NCBI GenBank assembly: GCA_016874035.1
Contig: VGVM01000015.1
Coordinates: 1-46,568, forward strand
Direction: 5' to 3'
DNA from: Gemmatimonadota bacterium
GTDB lineage: Bacteria > Gemmatimonadota > Gemmatimonadetes > Gemmatimonadales > Gemmatimonadaceae
Length of the DNA stretch: 46,568 nucleotides
Part shown: piece after piece, positions 12,194 through 45,945 of the stretch
How the letters are laid out: the number at the start of each line of letters is the position of its first letter
Numbering within the stretch: the first letter of the stretch is position 1
Translations under genes and position numbers: made by a program
The notes under the pieces: generated by a model
What the model saw: the letters and a program-made list of their open reading frames with translations, nothing else
Told to the model about the DNA's origin: nothing
Database searches by the model: none

Positions 12194-12214
12194 GGCGCTA
12201 CGGCGCCACTTTTG
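12194..12214 (+). terminator. intrinsic terminator-like hairpin after the catabolic operon
   Basis: GGCGC (12194-12198), loop TACG, GCGCC (12203-12207), then a T-rich stretch ACTTTTGTT. The stem is short, but this is the only hairpin with a T tract in the tight convergent junction. It overlaps the end of the lipoprotein gene on the other strand. Confidence 0.4.
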
Positions 12215-12647
12215 TTGCGTACACGCGGCCGCCGGCCGCGCGCGAAGCCGCCGTGGCTGCGGCTGCCCGGGTGGCGCAGTCGGCGACCCCCGCGGTTTCA
12301 GGCGAGCAGCCGACCACGGTCGGGAACCACTCCGCGCCGACAGCCGGCGCAAGCGGATCCAGCGAGATCATGACGCCTCGCAGCCGGTTCGTGGGCCGGC
12401 ACGAAAACGCGAGGCGGCCCGGAAGCGTGCCGCGTTCCATCGCCGTGCACCGGGCATTGTCGAGGTCCACCGTCACACCTTCGGCGGTGAGCCGCAACAT
12501 GCCGGTCATGCGCAGGTTGCCGTCGGTCGCGACCAGCGAATACGCCTCGTCCGCGCCTGGCGCGCTTGGGATGGGGCTGGGTGTCGGAGCGGCGCGGCTG
12601 CATCCGGCGACCGCGACGATCATGAGAAGAACGCAGTTTGCCCGCAT
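12198..12647 (-). CDS. small lipoprotein of unknown function
   Basis: The ATG at 12647 gives a 149-residue protein starting MRANCVLLMIVAVAGC, a short lipoprotein signal with a V-A-G-C lipobox. A longer form from 12680 would bury this signal behind 11 extra residues and is less likely. The mature part has a Pro/Ser linker, a segment resembling DGNLRMTGMLRLTAEGVTVDLDNARC and a C-terminal Ala-rich helix. Four further cysteines could form two disulfides in the periplasm. No family is recognised. It follows the LemA gene by 36 bases on the same strand. Confidence 0.65.
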   Translation of the reverse strand: MRANCVLLMIVAVAGCSRAAPTPSPIPSAPGADEAYSLVATDGNLRMTGMLRLTAEGVTVDLDNARCTAMERGTLPGRLAFSCRPTNRLRGVMISLDPLAPAVGAEWFPTVVGCSPETAGVADCATRAAAATAASRAAGGRVYATKVAP

Positions 12648-12683
12648 CGTTTCGCCTCGCACGGAATGTTGTCCGTGCACCGC

Positions 12684-18185: not shown

Positions 18186-18938
18186 TCAGGGCGCCCGAGT
18201 CGCGACGAACCCCCGGATGGCCGTGATCGCGTCGCGCTTCACCCAGATGCCGACGCGTCCGGTGAGGGCGGTGTCGAGCGTGTGCCGGACGGCGATCGTC
18301 GTGTCGCCCGCAATGTGCCCGCTCACCTCGCGCCCGTTGATCGTCACGACGAGCTCATGCCACGCCGTGCGGTCGAGCTGCTTGTGCACGTCGCCATGCT
18401 TGATCACTTCGCGCGCGCCGTTCACGAACTTCCACAGCGCGACGTTGCCGTCCTTGGTGTTGTAGCGGAGGTAGTGGTACTCGCCGTTCGGCTGCATGCC
18501 GAAGATGATCCCGGCATTCTGGTCCGACGCGCCGCCGAGCAGCTTGAACTCGGTGCGGATCGTGCCGCTGGAGAACGTGTCAACTGCAGGTGCGACCGCG
18601 ACCGGAAACGCGTTCTCCGTGGTCCAGGTCCGGAGCAGCGTCGAATCGGCCACGCCGAAGAGCGGCGTGATGATCGGCTCGAGGTCGGCGGGCGCCGTCG
18701 TGCCGGACCACGCTTCACCGTTCACGACGAGCGCGGGGCCGTCCACGGTGGTGTCGAGCCAGCGGCCTGTGAGTCCGACGAGCGTGGGAACAGGATACGG
18801 CGGGGGCGATTCGCTGGTCGGGGTCGCGGCGTTCTCGCCGCACGCGACAGTGGCCGACAGCGCCGCGGCAAGCGCAGTCACGGTGAGCGCCGCGGCTCGG
18901 CGGGACATCGTGGCACGGCGACGCAATCTGGTGGTCAC
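18186..18938 (-). CDS. exported concanavalin-like (DUF1080/LamG-type) protein
   Basis: This protein has 250 residues from 18938, or 240 from an internal Met (MSRRAAALTVTALAAALSATVACGE). The latter gives a compact signal with a cysteine that could be lipidated, though the box T-V-A-C is not ideal. The mature domain reads TIRTEFKLLGGASDQNAGIIFGMQPNGEYHYLRYNTKDGNVALWKF and later WHELVVTINGREVSGHIAGDT, TGRVGIWVKRDAIT. These are the strands of the 3-keto-disaccharide hydrolase/DUF1080 jelly-roll fold, which often binds carbohydrate. No catalytic residue can be assigned. It ends 83 bases before the Tat-exported gene and starts 7 bases after the small membrane gene's stop. Confidence 0.65.
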   Translation of the reverse strand: MTTRLRRRATMSRRAAALTVTALAAALSATVACGENAATPTSESPPPYPVPTLVGLTGRWLDTTVDGPALVVNGEAWSGTTAPADLEPIITPLFGVADSTLLRTWTTENAFPVAVAPAVDTFSSGTIRTEFKLLGGASDQNAGIIFGMQPNGEYHYLRYNTKDGNVALWKFVNGAREVIKHGDVHKQLDRTAWHELVVTINGREVSGHIAGDTTIAVRHTLDTALTGRVGIWVKRDAITAIRGFVATRAP

Positions 18939-39444: not shown

Positions 39445-39945
39445 ATGGCCAAGGACGCATCTTTTGACGTCTCGACCGGCGTCAACCTGCAGGAAGTGGA
39501 CAACGCGGTGAACCAGGCGACCAAGGAGGTCGCCCAGCGTTACGATTTCAAGGACGCCAAGGTCACCATCGAGTTCAAGCGTGCCGAGGGCGTCATCGCC
39601 CTCTCCGCCGACAGCGATATGCGCATGCGCGCCCTCTTCGACGTCGTCCAGGCGAAGCTGATCAAGCGTGGCGTGCCGGTGAAGAACCTCGATGTCGGCG
39701 AGGTCACGCCGGCCGGCGGCGACATCCTCAAGCGGACGGTCACGCTCAAGCAGGCCCTCGATTCCGATACTGCGAAGAAGGTCGCCGCGGCGGTCAAGGA
39801 ACAGAAGTTCAAGAAGGTGACCTGCTCGATCCAGGCCGATCAGGTGCGCGTGTCCGCGCCGTCGCGCGACGAACTGCAGGCCGTCATCCAGTTCCTCCGC
39901 GCCAGCGATTACGGCGTCGAGTTGCAGTTCGGAAACTATCGGTGA
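39445..39945 (+). CDS. yajQ: YajQ family nucleotide-binding protein
   Basis: This 166-residue protein begins MAKDASFDVSTGVNLQEVDNAVNQATKEVAQRYDFKDAKVTIEF, diagnostic of YajQ. Two ferredoxin-like halves are visible, the second with KRGVPVKNLDVGEVTPAGGDILKRTVTLKQ and the final RASDYGVELQFGNYR. Family members bind nucleotides and, in Xanthomonas, cyclic-di-GMP to control transcription factors. No c-di-GMP enzymes are in the window. The rimO gene begins inside its stop (GTGA). Confidence 0.95.
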   Translation: MAKDASFDVSTGVNLQEVDNAVNQATKEVAQRYDFKDAKVTIEFKRAEGVIALSADSDMRMRALFDVVQAKLIKRGVPVKNLDVGEVTPAGGDILKRTVTLKQALDSDTAKKVAAAVKEQKFKKVTCSIQADQVRVSAPSRDELQAVIQFLRASDYGVELQFGNYR

Positions 39946-41321
39946 CCAAGCGCAGTCCCGGCGACCAGCCGACCTTCGCGCTCATCACGCTCGGCTGCGA
40001 CAAGAACACCGTGGACTCCGAGCGCTACATCGGCGCGCTCGTCGAGCACGGCGCCGAGCATGTGCCGGACCCCAGGTCCGCCGACATCGTCATCGTGAAC
40101 ACCTGCGGCTTCATAGACGCCGCCAAGCAGGAGTCCATTGACGCAATCATCGGCGCGTCGAAGGCGAAGGCCCGGGGCAAGGTGGGCGCAGTCGTCGCGG
40201 TCGGCTGCATGGTCCAGCGGCATGAGGCGGAGCTGCGCGAGGCCATCCCCGAGGTGGACCTGCTCCTCGGCGCGGCCGAGTGCGATCAGCTGGTCCCCCG
40301 ACTGATTGACCAGGGTTTGCTCGGCCCGAGCGAAGCCCTGCACCCGGGGACGCGCGTGTATGCCGGTTCGTCGCCGCACGTGCGGTACCTCAAGCTCAGC
40401 GAGGGCTGCGATCACGGCTGCGCGTTCTGCGCGATCCCGCTGATGCGTGGCCGACATCGCTCATTTGCGCTCGCGGATGTCGTCCGCGAAGCGCAGCTGC
40501 TCGAGCTGCAGGGCGCGCGCGAGGTGAACCTCGTCGCGCAGGACCTGGCGCATTACGGGCGCGATCGCCGCGACGGCGTCGGCTTGCCCGAGGCGCTCGA
40601 GGCGCTCGTCCGTGAGACGACGATCCCGTGGATCCGGCTCATGTACCTGTATTCGGCGGGCATTACGCCGCGCCTGCTCGAGGTCATTGCGCGCGAACCG
40701 CGGATCGTGCCGTACCTCGACATGCCAATCCAGCACGCATCGGATCCCGTGCTGAAGCGCATGCGCCGACCGGAGCGCCAGCAGACCATCCGCGACAAGG
40801 TGGCGCGTTTCCGCGCGGCCGTGCCCGGCGTCGCGATCCGAACGACGTGCATCGTCGGGTTCCCGGGCGAAACCGACGCCGATTTCACGCAACTGATCGA
40901 CTTCCTGGAAGAGACGCGGTTCGACCGTGTTGGCGCGTTCACCTATTCGCCACAGGAAGGCACGCGCGCCGCCGAACTCGCGGACGACGTCCCGGATTCC
41001 GTGAAGGCCGAACGACTCGAGCACCTCACGTCGGTCCAGCGCGGGATCACCGAGTCGCGATATGAGGAACGTGTCGGCACGGTGGCGACGGCGCTCGCCG
41101 ACGGCGGCCGCAAGGCGCGGCTGCCTTGGCAGGCGGACGACATTGACGGCATCACGACGCTCGACCGCGCACTCAAGCCGGGAACCCTCGCGACGGTCGA
41201 GGTCACGGGAACCGATGAGTACGACTTCACCGCCCGGGTGATCACGGTGCTGGCGGAACCGGTGGCGGCCGCCCCGAACCGCGCATTGCCGCTCGCACCC
41301 GTGGGCGCGTTCGGGCGGTGA
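39942..41321 (+). CDS. rimO: ribosomal protein S12 methylthiotransferase RimO
   Basis: This 459-residue radical-SAM enzyme starts with GTG overlapping yajQ. The N-terminal MTTase domain carries the auxiliary-cluster cysteines in LGCDKNTVDSERY, VNTCGFIDAAKQESI and VAVGCMVQRH. The SAM cluster is CDHGCAFCAIPLMRG (CxxxCxxC), followed by VNLVAQDLAHYG and PIQHASDPVLKRMRR. The C-terminal TRAM domain ends near TGTDEYDFTARVI. It adds a methylthio group to an aspartate of ribosomal protein uS12. The short Pro/Ala tail after TRAM is unremarkable. Confidence 0.95.
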   Translation: MTKRSPGDQPTFALITLGCDKNTVDSERYIGALVEHGAEHVPDPRSADIVIVNTCGFIDAAKQESIDAIIGASKAKARGKVGAVVAVGCMVQRHEAELREAIPEVDLLLGAAECDQLVPRLIDQGLLGPSEALHPGTRVYAGSSPHVRYLKLSEGCDHGCAFCAIPLMRGRHRSFALADVVREAQLLELQGAREVNLVAQDLAHYGRDRRDGVGLPEALEALVRETTIPWIRLMYLYSAGITPRLLEVIAREPRIVPYLDMPIQHASDPVLKRMRRPERQQTIRDKVARFRAAVPGVAIRTTCIVGFPGETDADFTQLIDFLEETRFDRVGAFTYSPQEGTRAAELADDVPDSVKAERLEHLTSVQRGITESRYEERVGTVATALADGGRKARLPWQADDIDGITTLDRALKPGTLATVEVTGTDEYDFTARVITVLAEPVAAAPNRALPLAPVGAFGR

Positions 41322-42712
41322 ATCGGCGTCACCTGCTGACGGTTGGCGCCGGCTCGGCGCTCCTCGCGGTCGCCGCCTGCGTCACACGACGGGTGCCGGA
41401 CCCCGGGCCGCCGGTGATCAGCTTCCCGGAGACCGCGCGCAACGCGCGCGACTCGGCCGGCCGCGCGACGCGCCCGGGTGCCGAAGTCCCGCCGCGGCTC
41501 CCGCCCGATACCGCGCCTGACCGCGCCCGCGACGGCGACTACGATGTCCGCGTCGCGCTGGACCCGGCGACACCTGTCGCGGTGATCGGTTCGACCGGCG
41601 CGTGGCGACTGTTCGACTGGGACGGCTCGGTGCTGGTGAGAGGGCGCGCGGGCGAGGCGTGGACAATCGAGCGGCAGGGAAATCGCGTACGGGCCGTTTC
41701 GCGCAATCGCTCGGCGACGGCGTGGGTTACGGGTGGCTTGGTCGCGCGGACCGATGGGGCGGGCGCGCTCGTCACCGTCGGGGCAAGGCGCTATCGCGGG
41801 TCGGTGCGCGCGATCCCCACCGACTCCGGCATCGCGGTCGTGAATGTGCTTGCGGTGGAGGAATACCTGCGCGGTGTGGTCCCGCTCGAGATCGGCGTTG
41901 CGCGCCAGGCGAGCGACCAGGCCGCGGTGGAAGCGCAGGCGATCGCCGCGCGCAGTTACACGTGGGTGCGGCTTGCTGCGGCGGGGCGCGGCGGCAGCAG
42001 GGCCGCGCATTACGACATGCTGGCGGGTGTGGGCGACCAGGTGTACGGCGGCGCCGATGCCGAGCGTGCCGACACCGATCGCGCGATCCGGGCAACGGTC
42101 GGCCTCACGCTCAAGTTCGGTGGCCGGGTCGTGGATGCGCCGTATTCATCGGCCTGCGGCGGGTCCACCGCGGCGCCGGATGAAGTCTGGCGGACCGGCG
42201 CCTCGACGTACCTCCGCCGCGTGAGCGACCGCATTCCGGGCGCGGCGGACCGCTACTACTGCGACATCGCACCGCGATTCTCCTGGACGCGCACATTCAC
42301 CGGCGCGGAGCTGGAATCCGCGGTGCGGGCGTATCTCCACCAGTATTCGAGCGCGCCGCAGGGCGGGGCAGGCCGCGTGCGGGGTATCTCAATAGATGCG
42401 CGCACACCGAGCGGGCGAGTCGCCGCCACCTCGTTCGTGACCGAACGCGGGACGTACACGGTCCGCGCCAACGATGTGCGGTCGGTACTGCGCGCGCCCG
42501 GTGGTGAGATCCTGAACAGCACGTATTTTTCGTTGCAGACCGAGGTCGGACGCGATGGCACGCTGCAGCGCGTCGTCCTCACGGGCAACGGCTACGGGCA
42601 CGGCGTCGGCATGTGCCAGTGGGGCGCGATCGGCCGCGCCCGCGCCGGCCAGACCGCCCGCGCTATCCTCGCCGCGTATTTCCCGGGCACGACCGTCGGC
42701 CCTGCGCAGTGA
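41318..42712 (+). CDS. SpoIID/LytB domain lipoprotein
   Basis: GTG 41318 (overlapping rimO) gives 464 residues with a lipoprotein signal (MNRRHLLTVGAGSALLAVAAC; Cys21 after VAA). A Pro/Arg-rich linker and a small beta domain (VRVALDPATPVAVIGSTGAWRLFDWDGSVLV) precede the SpoIID core from about residue 170: VNVLAVEEYLRGVVPLEIG, AVEAQAIAARSYTWVR, YSSACGGSTAAPDEVW and GNGYGHGVGMCQWGAIGRARAG. SpoIID proteins are lytic transglycosylases acting on glycan strands without stem peptides. Here, in a non-sporulating diderm, it probably works on cell-wall remodelling in the periplasm. Confidence 0.9.
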   Translation: MNRRHLLTVGAGSALLAVAACVTRRVPDPGPPVISFPETARNARDSAGRATRPGAEVPPRLPPDTAPDRARDGDYDVRVALDPATPVAVIGSTGAWRLFDWDGSVLVRGRAGEAWTIERQGNRVRAVSRNRSATAWVTGGLVARTDGAGALVTVGARRYRGSVRAIPTDSGIAVVNVLAVEEYLRGVVPLEIGVARQASDQAAVEAQAIAARSYTWVRLAAAGRGGSRAAHYDMLAGVGDQVYGGADAERADTDRAIRATVGLTLKFGGRVVDAPYSSACGGSTAAPDEVWRTGASTYLRRVSDRIPGAADRYYCDIAPRFSWTRTFTGAELESAVRAYLHQYSSAPQGGAGRVRGISIDARTPSGRVAATSFVTERGTYTVRANDVRSVLRAPGGEILNSTYFSLQTEVGRDGTLQRVVLTGNGYGHGVGMCQWGAIGRARAGQTARAILAAYFPGTTVGPAQ

Positions 42713-42716
42713 TCCC

Positions 42717-44012
42717 GTGACCGCCCAACGACGCCTCCTCGCTGTCCTCCTCTGCCTCGCGCTGGGCCGCCCCGGTTCCGCGCAGGCGAGTCCGCAGGCA
42801 CCCATGCCCGCGCGAGTGCCTTCAAGCGTGCCCGCCGAGGATTCCGTCCGCGTCTCGGTGCTCACGTTCGGGCCGGGCGAAATGCTGTTCGATCGCTTCG
42901 GGCACATGGCGATCCGTGTGCGCGATTCCCGCACTGGGCTCGATTCGGCGTACAACTGGGGCATGTACGACTTCAACTCGCCGAACTTCATCGGGCGCTT
43001 CCTGACCGGCGAGACGCAGTACTGGATGGCGGGTTTCCCGACCGCGCTGTTCGTTGACTACTACCGCCGAGCCGAACGCTCCGTGTGGGAACAGGACCTC
43101 GCGCTCGATCGCGTGACGGCCGACTCGCTCGTGGCGTTCCTCCGCTGGAACGCGCAACCGGCCAACAAGTTCTATCGCTACGACTACTACCTCGACAACT
43201 GTGCGACGCGCGTGCGCGACGTGCTCGACCAGATACTCGGCGGCGGGCTGAAGGCACAGATCACCGGCCCCGGCGACGGACGGACCTGGCGCGATGAAAC
43301 GCTGCGGCTCGCGGCGGCGTTTCCGTCCATCGGGCTCGGCATGACCTTCGCTCTGGGGCGTCCCGCGGATGTCCCGCTTACCAAGTGGGAGATGGCCTTC
43401 ATCCCCATGCACCTGCGCGACCAGCTCCGCAGCGTGCGGGTGGGAGAAGGCACAGGGGCGCGGCCGCTCGTGGTCGCCGAGCGCGCGCTGGTCGAGAACG
43501 ACAAGTACAAGGAACAGGCGCACTTCGCGCGCTCGCGGTTCGAGCAGTTCGGTCCGTTCAACAACTTCCTGGTCTTGCTTTACCTGCTGGGCTTTGCCGC
43601 CGTTGGCCTGGGCGCATTGCGCCCGCGCCCGTGGGCGAGGTGGGGGTCCGCCGTGCTCATTTCCGGCTGGCACCTCTTCGCCGGGCTCGCCGGCACACTC
43701 GTGCTGCTCGCCGGCACCATGACACGCCACACCTTCATGGCGCAGAACCCCTCTGTGTTGCTCGGCACCCCCGTGTCACTGTTGTTGGTCCTACTCATTC
43801 CGCTCGCATTCCGCAGGAACGCCTCGGAGCGCACGCGGAAGGCCGCCACCGCGGCCGCCGTGTTTGCCGCGATCGCCGCGCTCTCCACGTTCGGCTTCGC
43901 GCTCGCCGGGCTTGGCACCAGCGGCATTGCCGCCGTGGTGGTCGGGACCATCATGCACGTCGCGGTTTTGCTCGCCACCATGCTGCACATCCACTACCGG
44001 CAGCCCGCATGA
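42717..44012 (+). CDS. DUF4105/Lnb-like periplasmic-domain membrane protein
   Basis: The GTG at 42717, four bases after the SpoIID stop, gives 431 residues with a signal peptide (TAQRRLLAVLLCLALGRPGSAQA). The soluble domain contains VLTFGPGEMLFDRFGHMAIRVRD (His63), YNWGMYDFNSPNFIGRFLTGETQYWMAG and FYRYDYYLDNCATRVRDVLDQ (Cys162); these are the conserved His and Cys blocks of DUF4105. Then come about five membrane helices (285-425). DUF4105 is the N-terminal periplasmic domain of Lnb, recently linked in Bacteroides to N-acylation of lipoproteins in place of Lnt. The His/Cys pair would be catalytic. Functional transfer to this phylum is inferred. Confidence 0.8.
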   Translation: MTAQRRLLAVLLCLALGRPGSAQASPQAPMPARVPSSVPAEDSVRVSVLTFGPGEMLFDRFGHMAIRVRDSRTGLDSAYNWGMYDFNSPNFIGRFLTGETQYWMAGFPTALFVDYYRRAERSVWEQDLALDRVTADSLVAFLRWNAQPANKFYRYDYYLDNCATRVRDVLDQILGGGLKAQITGPGDGRTWRDETLRLAAAFPSIGLGMTFALGRPADVPLTKWEMAFIPMHLRDQLRSVRVGEGTGARPLVVAERALVENDKYKEQAHFARSRFEQFGPFNNFLVLLYLLGFAAVGLGALRPRPWARWGSAVLISGWHLFAGLAGTLVLLAGTMTRHTFMAQNPSVLLGTPVSLLLVLLIPLAFRRNASERTRKAATAAAVFAAIAALSTFGFALAGLGTSGIAAVVVGTIMHVAVLLATMLHIHYRQPA

Positions 44013-44019
44013 CCGCCGC

Positions 44020-45945
44020 ATGACCACGGTCGGCATTGACGTCGGCGGCACGTACACCGACCTCGCAGCCATCGGCAGCGATGGCCGCGTCACCACGCGG
44101 AAGGTGCTGAGCACGCCGCGTGACCAGAGCGAGGGTGTCGCGGCGTCACTCGATGCGCTCGGCTCGGCGAAGGCCGAAGTCACCCGCATCGCGCATGGGA
44201 CAACGGTGGTGACGAACCTGCTGCTCGAGCGCACAGGCGCGCGCGTCGCGCTCTGCGCCACTGCCGACGCCGCCGACCTCCTCGAGCTGCGCCGCCAGGA
44301 GCGAGCGGGACTCTACGACCTGTCGCGCCAGCATCCCGCGCCGCTCGCTGCACAGGCCGATGTCATTCCCGTAAACGAGCGCATCGGCCCCGAGGGCATT
44401 CGCGCGCCACTGACACCGGAAGAGTGCACGCGAGTCGCCGAGGCCATTGCGGCCGTGGCACCGGATATCGTGGTGGTCTCGCTGCTGCACGCCTACGCGA
44501 ACCGCGCACACGAGCAACAGCTCGCCGCGGCGATCGCGCGGCGGAATCCCAAGGTGGACGTCGTGTGCGGTGGCGATGTGCTCCCCGAGATCCGCGAGTA
44601 CGAACGCACGACCACGGCGGTCGCCGAAGGCTACGCGCGGCCCCGCGTGCGTACGTACCTGAGTCACCTCACGTCGCGCCTTGCTGAACGTGGGCTGCCG
44701 GCGCCCGGCGTGATGACCAGTGGCGGCGGCATGCTTCCCGCCGACGCGGCCGCCACACGTGCGGCGTCGCTTGCGCTCTCTGGCCCTGCCGGGGGCGTGG
44801 TGGGCACGGCTGCCGTCCTCCGCGCACTGGGGATCGCCGATGCGCTCGCGATTGACATCGGCGGCACCAGCGCCGATGCCGGCCTCGTGCTCGGCGGCCA
44901 ACCGCTGGTCGAGCCCGGCGGTTCCGTTGCGGGTGTGCCGATCTCGCTCCCGCGCGTGCTGGTCGAGACGGTGAGCGCCGGCGGCGGGAGCATCGCCTGG
45001 ATAGACGACGGCGGCGCGCTGCGCGTCGGCCCGCGCAGCGCGGGCGCCGTTCCGGGTCCGGTCGCGTTTGGGCGCGGCGGTACCGAGCCCACGGTGACCG
45101 ACGCCCACATCGTGCTCGGCCGGCTCGATGCCGCCACGCTCTCAGGCGGCGTGACGCTGCAGCCGGAGGCGGCGCGAGCCGCCGTTGCCGCGCTCGCCAG
45201 GAAGCTCGGCGCCACGCCCGAACGCACGGCCGCGGCGATCATCGCCATCGCGGATGCCTCGATGGCGCGCGCGCTGCGGCGCGTGAGCGTCGAACGCGGC
45301 ATTGACCCGCGTCGCTGCGCGCTCGTCGGCTTTGGGGGCGGTGGTCCGCTCCACGCGTGCGGGCTCGCCGAGTTGCTTGGCATGACCCGCGTGATCGTGC
45401 CGCCGCACGCCGGTGTGCTGAGCGCGCTGGGCTTGGCGATCGCGCCGGAACGCCGCGAGGCGGCGACCAGCGTCATGCGCGCCGCCGGGTCGCTCGCGCG
45501 GCGCGATCTTGACCGCCTCGTCGCCGACCTCGCGCAGCGCGCGGCCTCCGCAATGGGCAAGCATCGCGTCGAGGCGCGCGCGCGTGTGCGCTACGAAGGG
45601 CAGGGGTACGAACTCGATGTTCCCGTGAAGCGGGGCGACAGTGGCGATGCCATCGCGCGCCGTTTTGCCACGGTTCACAACGCCCGCTACGGATTCACGA
45701 TGACGCGTGATGTGGAAGTCGTCGCCATGCGCGTGGCGGCGATCGGCCCGGAAACGCGCGTGAAGTTCGGCCCGCGTGCCGCGCCGCGGAAAGCGAAAGC
45801 CGCTGCGGGCACGAGGCAGCCGAAGCAGCGGCCAGCTGTTCGCGGCCCGCACGTGGTCACGCTCGACGATGCGACCATGGTCGTCTCGCGCGGCTGGACG
45901 GCGACCCCGCTGCCGATCGGCGGCTGGATGGTCGAGCGCACATGA
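44020..45945 (+). CDS. hydantoinase/oxoprolinase family protein, subunit A
   Basis: The ATG at 44020, 7 bases after the preceding stop, gives 641 residues. The N terminus TTVGIDVGGTYTDLAAIGSDG is the acetate/sugar-kinase-like ATP loop of HyuA. It is followed by IAHGTTVVTNLLLERTGARVAL, GPAGGVVGTAAVL, AIDIGGTSADAGLV and VGFGGGGPLHACGLAELLGMTRVIVPPHAGVLSALG. These ATP-dependent amidohydrolases open cyclic amides such as hydantoins or 5-oxoproline, or carboxylate ketones, with subunit B. The gene overlaps subunit B by four bases. The substrate cannot be told. Confidence 0.9.
   Translation: MTTVGIDVGGTYTDLAAIGSDGRVTTRKVLSTPRDQSEGVAASLDALGSAKAEVTRIAHGTTVVTNLLLERTGARVALCATADAADLLELRRQERAGLYDLSRQHPAPLAAQADVIPVNERIGPEGIRAPLTPEECTRVAEAIAAVAPDIVVVSLLHAYANRAHEQQLAAAIARRNPKVDVVCGGDVLPEIREYERTTTAVAEGYARPRVRTYLSHLTSRLAERGLPAPGVMTSGGGMLPADAAATRAASLALSGPAGGVVGTAAVLRALGIADALAIDIGGTSADAGLVLGGQPLVEPGGSVAGVPISLPRVLVETVSAGGGSIAWIDDGGALRVGPRSAGAVPGPVAFGRGGTEPTVTDAHIVLGRLDAATLSGGVTLQPEAARAAVAALARKLGATPERTAAAIIAIADASMARALRRVSVERGIDPRRCALVGFGGGGPLHACGLAELLGMTRVIVPPHAGVLSALGLAIAPERREAATSVMRAAGSLARRDLDRLVADLAQRAASAMGKHRVEARARVRYEGQGYELDVPVKRGDSGDAIARRFATVHNARYGFTMTRDVEVVAMRVAAIGPETRVKFGPRAAPRKAKAAAGTRQPKQRPAVRGPHVVTLDDATMVVSRGWTATPLPIGGWMVERT

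Follow-up and report, generated by a model that had tools for sequence, protein, structure and literature searches.

The window, that is, the whole stretch of 46,568 nucleotides that was analysed, is contig 15 of a 3.08-Mb draft genome of a Gemmatimonadota bacterium (99.54% complete, 3.24% contaminated). It carries a candidate lipoprotein N-acyltransferase gene of the Lnb type between the gene for a SpoIID/LytB-type lipoprotein and a hydantoinase-A-like gene (Table 1). Translation from the GTG at 42717 gives 431 residues ending at a stop at 44012, with the histidine at 63 and the cysteine at 162; a longer mechanical open reading frame from 42555 would overlap the SpoIID gene by 158 bases, and the start at 42717 gives what appears, by our reading, to be a typical signal peptide. 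The SpoIID/LytB lipoprotein gene and the Lnb gene are probably co-translated. The former, with its lipobox, also adjoins the acyltransferase site in most genomes of the family to which the window belongs (f1) and of its sister family, the other large one of the same order (f2); Gemmatimonadota are not known as spore formers. An earlier note on this DNA had seen several lipoproteins nearby, and this holds for the adjoining SpoIID/LytB protein but only loosely for the others, which are two candidates picked by eye at 12198-12680 and 18186-18938, 24-30 kb away.

Table 1. Features of the candidate Lnb gene and its neighbours (positions in the window).
Feature	Position	Strand	Remarks
rimO, conserved upstream flank of the slot	39942..41321	+	from the translation and the position in relatives' gene arrays
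SpoIID/LytB-type lipoprotein, directly upstream, flank of the slot	41318..42712	+	lipobox LAVAAC
Candidate Lnb-like lipoprotein N-acyltransferase gene	42717..44012	+	431 aa; GTG start 4 bases past the stop of the upstream gene
His63 codon, putative catalytic histidine	42903..42905	+	kept in 120/121 Lnb of the wider set
Cys162 codon, putative catalytic cysteine, within a D-N-C motif	43200..43202	+	kept in 121/121 Lnb of the wider set
Predicted C-terminal five-helix membrane domain, residues 279-426	43551..43994	+	AlphaFold2 model, pLDDT mostly >90
Hydantoinase-A-like gene (hyuA), downstream flank of the slot in many relatives	43993..45945	+	from the translation and relatives' arrays

The gene occupies a chromosomal slot whose order is conserved in the fetched loci: rimO, optionally hemL, SpoIID, optionally a gene of cluster c17, Gfo/Idh, a variable gene X, and then hyuA/hyuB or prfA/hemK (Gfo/Idh, SpoIID, aminotransferase, LolA and Lnt named by Pfam; rimO, hemL, prfA, hemK and hyu by our reading). 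In the window, Lnb takes the X position and the array lacks Gfo/Idh. Cluster c17 (for example L112:4451-5173), found between SpoIID and Gfo/Idh in many slots, has no Pfam match and a secreted-like start. In three further families (f5, f7 and f9; L110-L117, L122, L269 and others) the slot adjoins ftsK and lolA, so that genes for lipoprotein acylation and for the lipoprotein carrier are neighbours there.

Profile searches relate the protein to DUF4105/Lnb. Lnb_N (PF13387) scores 81 bits over residues 42-175, above its curated cut-off of 22.2, and the Lnb transmembrane model (PF25221) matches weakly, at 20.2 bits, below its cut-off of 25.2. The NCBIfam Lnb model (NF051878) aligns along most of its length (residues 38-386 with model positions 23-361 of 394) at 206.7 bits (E 5e-61), a score far beyond chance, though below the equivalog cut-off of 550, which marks the protein as a distant branch relative to Bacteroides Lnb. 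Among the aligned members, PF13387 was found in 35/35 and PF25221 in 31/35 at E 0.001, and His63 and Cys162 are invariant in 35/35 and 79/79 aligned sequences. The LNT_N and nitrilase domains of Lnt (TIGR00546) were absent from the window protein in Pfam and NCBIfam profile searches. A scan of named genomes gave 494 relatives, and 75 of the 80 that were kept bear Gemmatimonad- names, with two from Nitrospirota and one from Nevskia; the assignment of the genome to Gemmatimonadota is based on these relatives.

An AlphaFold2 model built with 79 sequences (mean pLDDT 90.0, pTM 0.85) starts with an N-terminal helix, continues with a mixed alpha/beta domain and has, from residue 279 on, five long helical elements of the membrane type. 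By this prediction the topology would be of the Lnb type, with a signal peptide, a periplasmic Lnb_N domain and five C-terminal helices. The open reading frame with its two numbered residues, the match to DUF4105/Lnb, this topology and the occurrence of such a protein outside Bacteroidota had all been proposed in the earlier note, and all four were borne out, the topology at the level of prediction. The alpha/beta domain resembles TseH (6v98; Z 11.0, rmsd 3.4, 152 residues) and a cysteine peptidase of B. cereus (3kw0; Z 9.1, rmsd 2.8, 135 residues), with matches covering about residues 40-263 of the window protein, while the other rows of the fold comparison are mostly helices that match the membrane part and have little meaning. 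Foldseek alone ranked 6v98 first at E 0.039 and gave nothing under E 0.001, and the search for a solved chain related by sequence found none (best E 0.8, unrelated). DUF4105 has been grouped with TseH, Tox-Act1, YiiX and LRAT in a permuted NlpC/P60 group (PMC12994826, in the part of the text available), so fold and family agree. Those proteins are toxins, hydrolases or eukaryotic enzymes, and the available part of the same paper describes no five-helix domain of the Lnb type for them. The NlpC/P60 fold also suggested a peptidoglycan hydrolase, which was dropped in view of the predicted five-helix membrane anchor and of the lipid substrates assigned to the permuted branch in that part of the text (PMC12994826).

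In the genome that holds the window, the lnt profile search gave no match over the cut-off of 132.9 bits. The sole match, at 48.7 bits, is a soluble 306-aa nitrilase followed by an agmatine-deiminase-like gene (both names from our reading of the translations) and was rejected as a hidden lnt. An intact lnt, the observation named beforehand as counting against an Lnb function, was thus not found in this search. Addition of the third acyl chain to lipoproteins belongs to the textbook picture of the Gram-negative cell. This genome is without Lnt yet retains the enzymes of the earlier steps: two lspA genes score over the cut-off (L130, L131), and lgt is an open frame of 284 aa with 84.8 bits, below the cut-off of 118.9. 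A lolA homologue is also present over its cut-off.

The distribution of the two enzymes was surveyed in 200 Gemmatimonadota genomes, each at least 90% complete. Lnb_N was detected in 136 of them and the full-length Lnb model in 134; none of the 200 reaches the equivalog cut-off of the latter, so that the equivalence to Bacteroides Lnb is one that we infer. A gene for Lnt over its cut-off is present in 97. Combining the full-length Lnb model with Lnt, 98 genomes have Lnb only, 61 Lnt only, 36 both and 5 neither, a split between Lnb-only and both that hinges on the lnt cut-off, as three genomes (G148, G185, G098) have sub-cut-off, diverged Lnt-like genes in the slot. Within f1 the counts are 55 Lnb only, 14 Lnt only, 2 both and 2 neither (Fisher p 3.7e-11), and within f2 they are 23, 15, 1 and 1, respectively (p 6e-9), so that Lnb and Lnt occur together in just 3/113 genomes of these two families. 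Family f5 shows no exclusion: among its 50 genomes, 11 have Lnb only, 9 Lnt only, 29 both and 1 neither (Fisher p 0.42). Over-cut-off lnt also occurs in two Nitrospirota genomes that carry an Lnb relative, and this co-occurrence, like that in f5, indicates that Lnb is not always a substitute for an absent Lnt. Two of the five genomes with neither enzyme can be accounted for, as in G060 the end of an Lnb gene lies next to Gfo/Idh where the contig breaks off, and G115 has a diverged full-length Lnt in the slot; the other three (G187, G129, G058) have no Lnb or Lnt over threshold.

Several observations accompany these counts. In related f5 genomes the slot contains Lnt-like genes that have diverged strongly (G098, L346; G115, L345; G148, L343; G185, L344), and in G098, G148 and G185 Lnb is located elsewhere. 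A genome of the window's own genus (G165; L118, L119) has Lnb in the slot plus an intact, very divergent Lnt elsewhere, which may stem from transfer or from contamination. In G123 (L297), counted as having both enzymes, the lnt match covers only positions 160-394 of the model, within a frame of 369 aa that lacks the N-terminal membrane domain. Beside the full-length Lnb, some Gemmatimonadota (L003-L020, L022, L023 and others) encode a second PF13387 protein, often shorter and higher-scoring, which is unmatched by the full-length Lnb model and may form a separate subfamily without a membrane domain.

Slot positions could be read for 121 of the 134 genomes with Lnb and for 85 of the 97 with Lnt. 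In f1 and f2 together, lnt is the X gene in 29/29 Lnt-only genomes, and of the 78 Lnb-only genomes, 71 have Lnb as X, 3 have it in place but inverted and 4 have it elsewhere, a class that includes G064, whose Lnb and Gfo/Idh genes both sit at contig ends. Both genes stand in tandem in the slot of nine genomes (G155 in f1 and eight in f5), always in the order Lnb then Lnt. A search with a Gfo/Idh profile in 30 chosen genomes, most of which lack both enzymes or have Lnb outside the slot, located the slot in 19. It is empty in 8 of these (G030, G049, G050, G051, G068, G080, G140, G198), where prfA comes next after Gfo/Idh, about 20 to 1250 bases on, and nothing in between matches Lnb or Lnt; each of the 8 encodes Lnb elsewhere and gives no lnt match over the cut-off. 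Among the remaining 11, six show neither enzyme nor prfA in the available flank, three lie at a contig edge, and the slots of G060 and G041 show a piece of Lnb and an Lnt, respectively. Rare co-occurrence in f1 and f2, the shared slot and its emptiness in these 8 genomes with Lnb at another locus are together strong comparative evidence that Lnb and Lnt would share one job.

How many independent events underlie this pattern was examined on a FastTree phylogeny of concatenated slot-flank markers from 135 genomes across f1-f5, each represented by at least three of them; as neighbours of the slot, they could have travelled along with it. On this tree, 4 changes explain the Lnb/Lnt state in f1 and f2, so fewer events underlie the pattern than the small Fisher p values suggest, and five independent pairs gave 4 in the opposite direction, 0 in the same direction and 1 equal (p 0.125). 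The pattern of exclusion is clear, but the independent switches are few. The Lnt tree, with G098 and sequences shorter than 350 residues set aside, fits the families without a single change beyond the minimum (8 of 8), which suggests that lnt is an old resident of the slot, its loss accompanying the presence of Lnb. The Lnb tree is nearly minimal, with 11 changes against 6 and many open forks. Both genes have probably been long resident and been lost reciprocally, perhaps starting from an ancient tandem.

The Glu, Lys and Cys columns of Lnt, which we take to be its catalytic triad, are intact in 31/31 Lnt examined from both-enzyme genomes of all families, and the His/Cys pair of Lnb is intact in 23/23. 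Relaxed constraint was sought within f5, with G123 and G098 left out of the residue comparison, and was not detected on either side: deviations at 54 conserved columns of Lnt do not differ with the presence of Lnb (p 0.19), and Lnb shows no difference when Lnt is present (p 0.15). Decay of one enzyme beside the other is not supported, though four genomes (G098, G115, G148, G185) carry a diverged, sub-cut-off lnt in the slot. A tentative reading, to which about one chance in three might be given, is that two unrelated third-acyl enzymes are kept as a lasting pair, perhaps dividing lipoproteins or acyl donors between them, and that one-enzyme lineages, that of the window among them, have lost one member of the old tandem. 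It is based on f5, in which 29/50 genomes have both, with catalytic residues intact where examined and 8 with the Lnb-Lnt tandem.

Altogether, the window protein is most probably the lipoprotein N-acyltransferase of its own organism, a reading that is given a probability of roughly 0.85. Its signal peptide would place the permuted NlpC/P60 (papain-like) domain in the periplasm, and the five C-terminal helices would anchor the protein in the inner membrane. His63 would activate Cys162, which would take a fatty acyl chain off a membrane phospholipid as a thioester, a route suggested by the fold and by the conserved His63/Cys162 pair. The chain would then pass to the free alpha-amino group of the lipid-modified cysteine left by Lgt and LspA, after which LolA would carry the triacylated protein to the outer membrane. 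Lnb would in this way replace Lnt, which is encoded at the same place in related bacteria. The earlier proposal of a third-acyl enzyme can thus be retained for the organism itself, for which homology, fold, absence of lnt, near-exclusion and slot all speak. As "the enzyme of the phylum" it is too broad, given that Lnt is present in about half of the genomes (97/200), that 36/200 have both enzymes and that one family retains the two together.

Another lipid-acting role within the permuted NlpC/P60 group, such as that of a phospholipase or a lysophospholipid acyltransferase, is improbable, at somewhat less than one chance in ten; third acylation would then be absent from Lnb-only genomes or achieved by other means. 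The superfamily does include phospholipases and other acyltransferases (PMC12994826, in the part of the text available), the fold matches are TseH and the B. cereus enzyme and not a known N-acyltransferase, and both enzymes coexist in the 36 genomes counted above. On this account, however, the near-exclusion, the slot shared in two families and the empty lnt slots with Lnb elsewhere would be unexpected, as would the rarity of genomes with neither enzyme, two of which have an explanation. Even less probable is that the slot is a site where envelope genes come and go, shared by Lnb and Lnt by chance and with no common function. Its flanks do vary, with hyuA/hyuB or prfA/hemK downstream and hemL and c17 optional, and among the positions read in all families Lnb lies in the slot in 85/121 genomes and elsewhere in 36/121 (lnt in 79/85). 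Against this, the f1 and f2 loci fetched show Lnb, Lnt or both after SpoIID or Gfo/Idh, and the Lnt tree follows the families at the minimum number of changes. Least probable of all is a modification of the lipoprotein N-terminus other than that made by Lnt, for example N-acetylation, which is reported to take place extracellularly on lipoproteins in Bacillus (PMC12345273, available in part), or chain transfer from the lipoprotein itself, since Bacteroides Lnb, the closest characterised relative, is credited with the third acyl chain in the accessible parts of PMC13103446 and PMC12994826 and the slot exchange with Lnt suits full N-acylation.

The preferred reading, an N-acyltransferase of the Lnb type, therefore draws on likeness to two known enzymes. 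With Bacteroides Lnb (DUF4105; PF13387 plus PF25221; NF051878), compared through Pfam and NCBIfam models and through statements in the available parts of citing papers, the protein shares a periplasmic Lnb_N domain with His and Cys, a genome without lnt and, as predicted by the model, a five-helix membrane domain; the Gemmatimonadota Lnb differs in that it alternates with Lnt and sometimes accompanies it, and in its rimO-SpoIID-hyuA/prfA context. With Lnt (TIGR00546; LNT_N plus CN_hydrolase) it shares the presumed job and, in related genomes, the chromosomal slot, but Lnt is an unrelated nitrilase-type enzyme with a Glu-Lys-Cys triad, whose columns are conserved. That DUF4105 is Lnb, and that Lnt displaces it in three genomic contexts, has already been published, together with a DUF4105 clade that is primarily Bacteroides plus a Firmicutes-rich branch (PMC12994826, in the part of the text available), and an earlier survey had guessed at a role in transport or resistance (PMC10318531, likewise available in part). 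No report on a Gemmatimonadota apolipoprotein N-acyltransferase or on Gemmatimonas lipoprotein Lnt was found in the literature searched, with subscription papers outside its scope. Lnb itself and its displacement by Lnt are already known, and the Gemmatimonadota case appears undescribed in that literature, as far as the accessible texts go.

The alternation of the classical enzyme and an unrelated one at a single slot, with tandems in some lineages and both missing almost nowhere, supports the function of Lnb from an independent, genomic side. For annotators, it means that absence of lnt need not imply diacylated lipoproteins. Gemmatimonadota also offer a natural system for asking why two enzymes of one step are kept or exchanged, and if they do form a lasting pair in some lineages, Lnb and Lnt may serve different lipoproteins or acyl donors.
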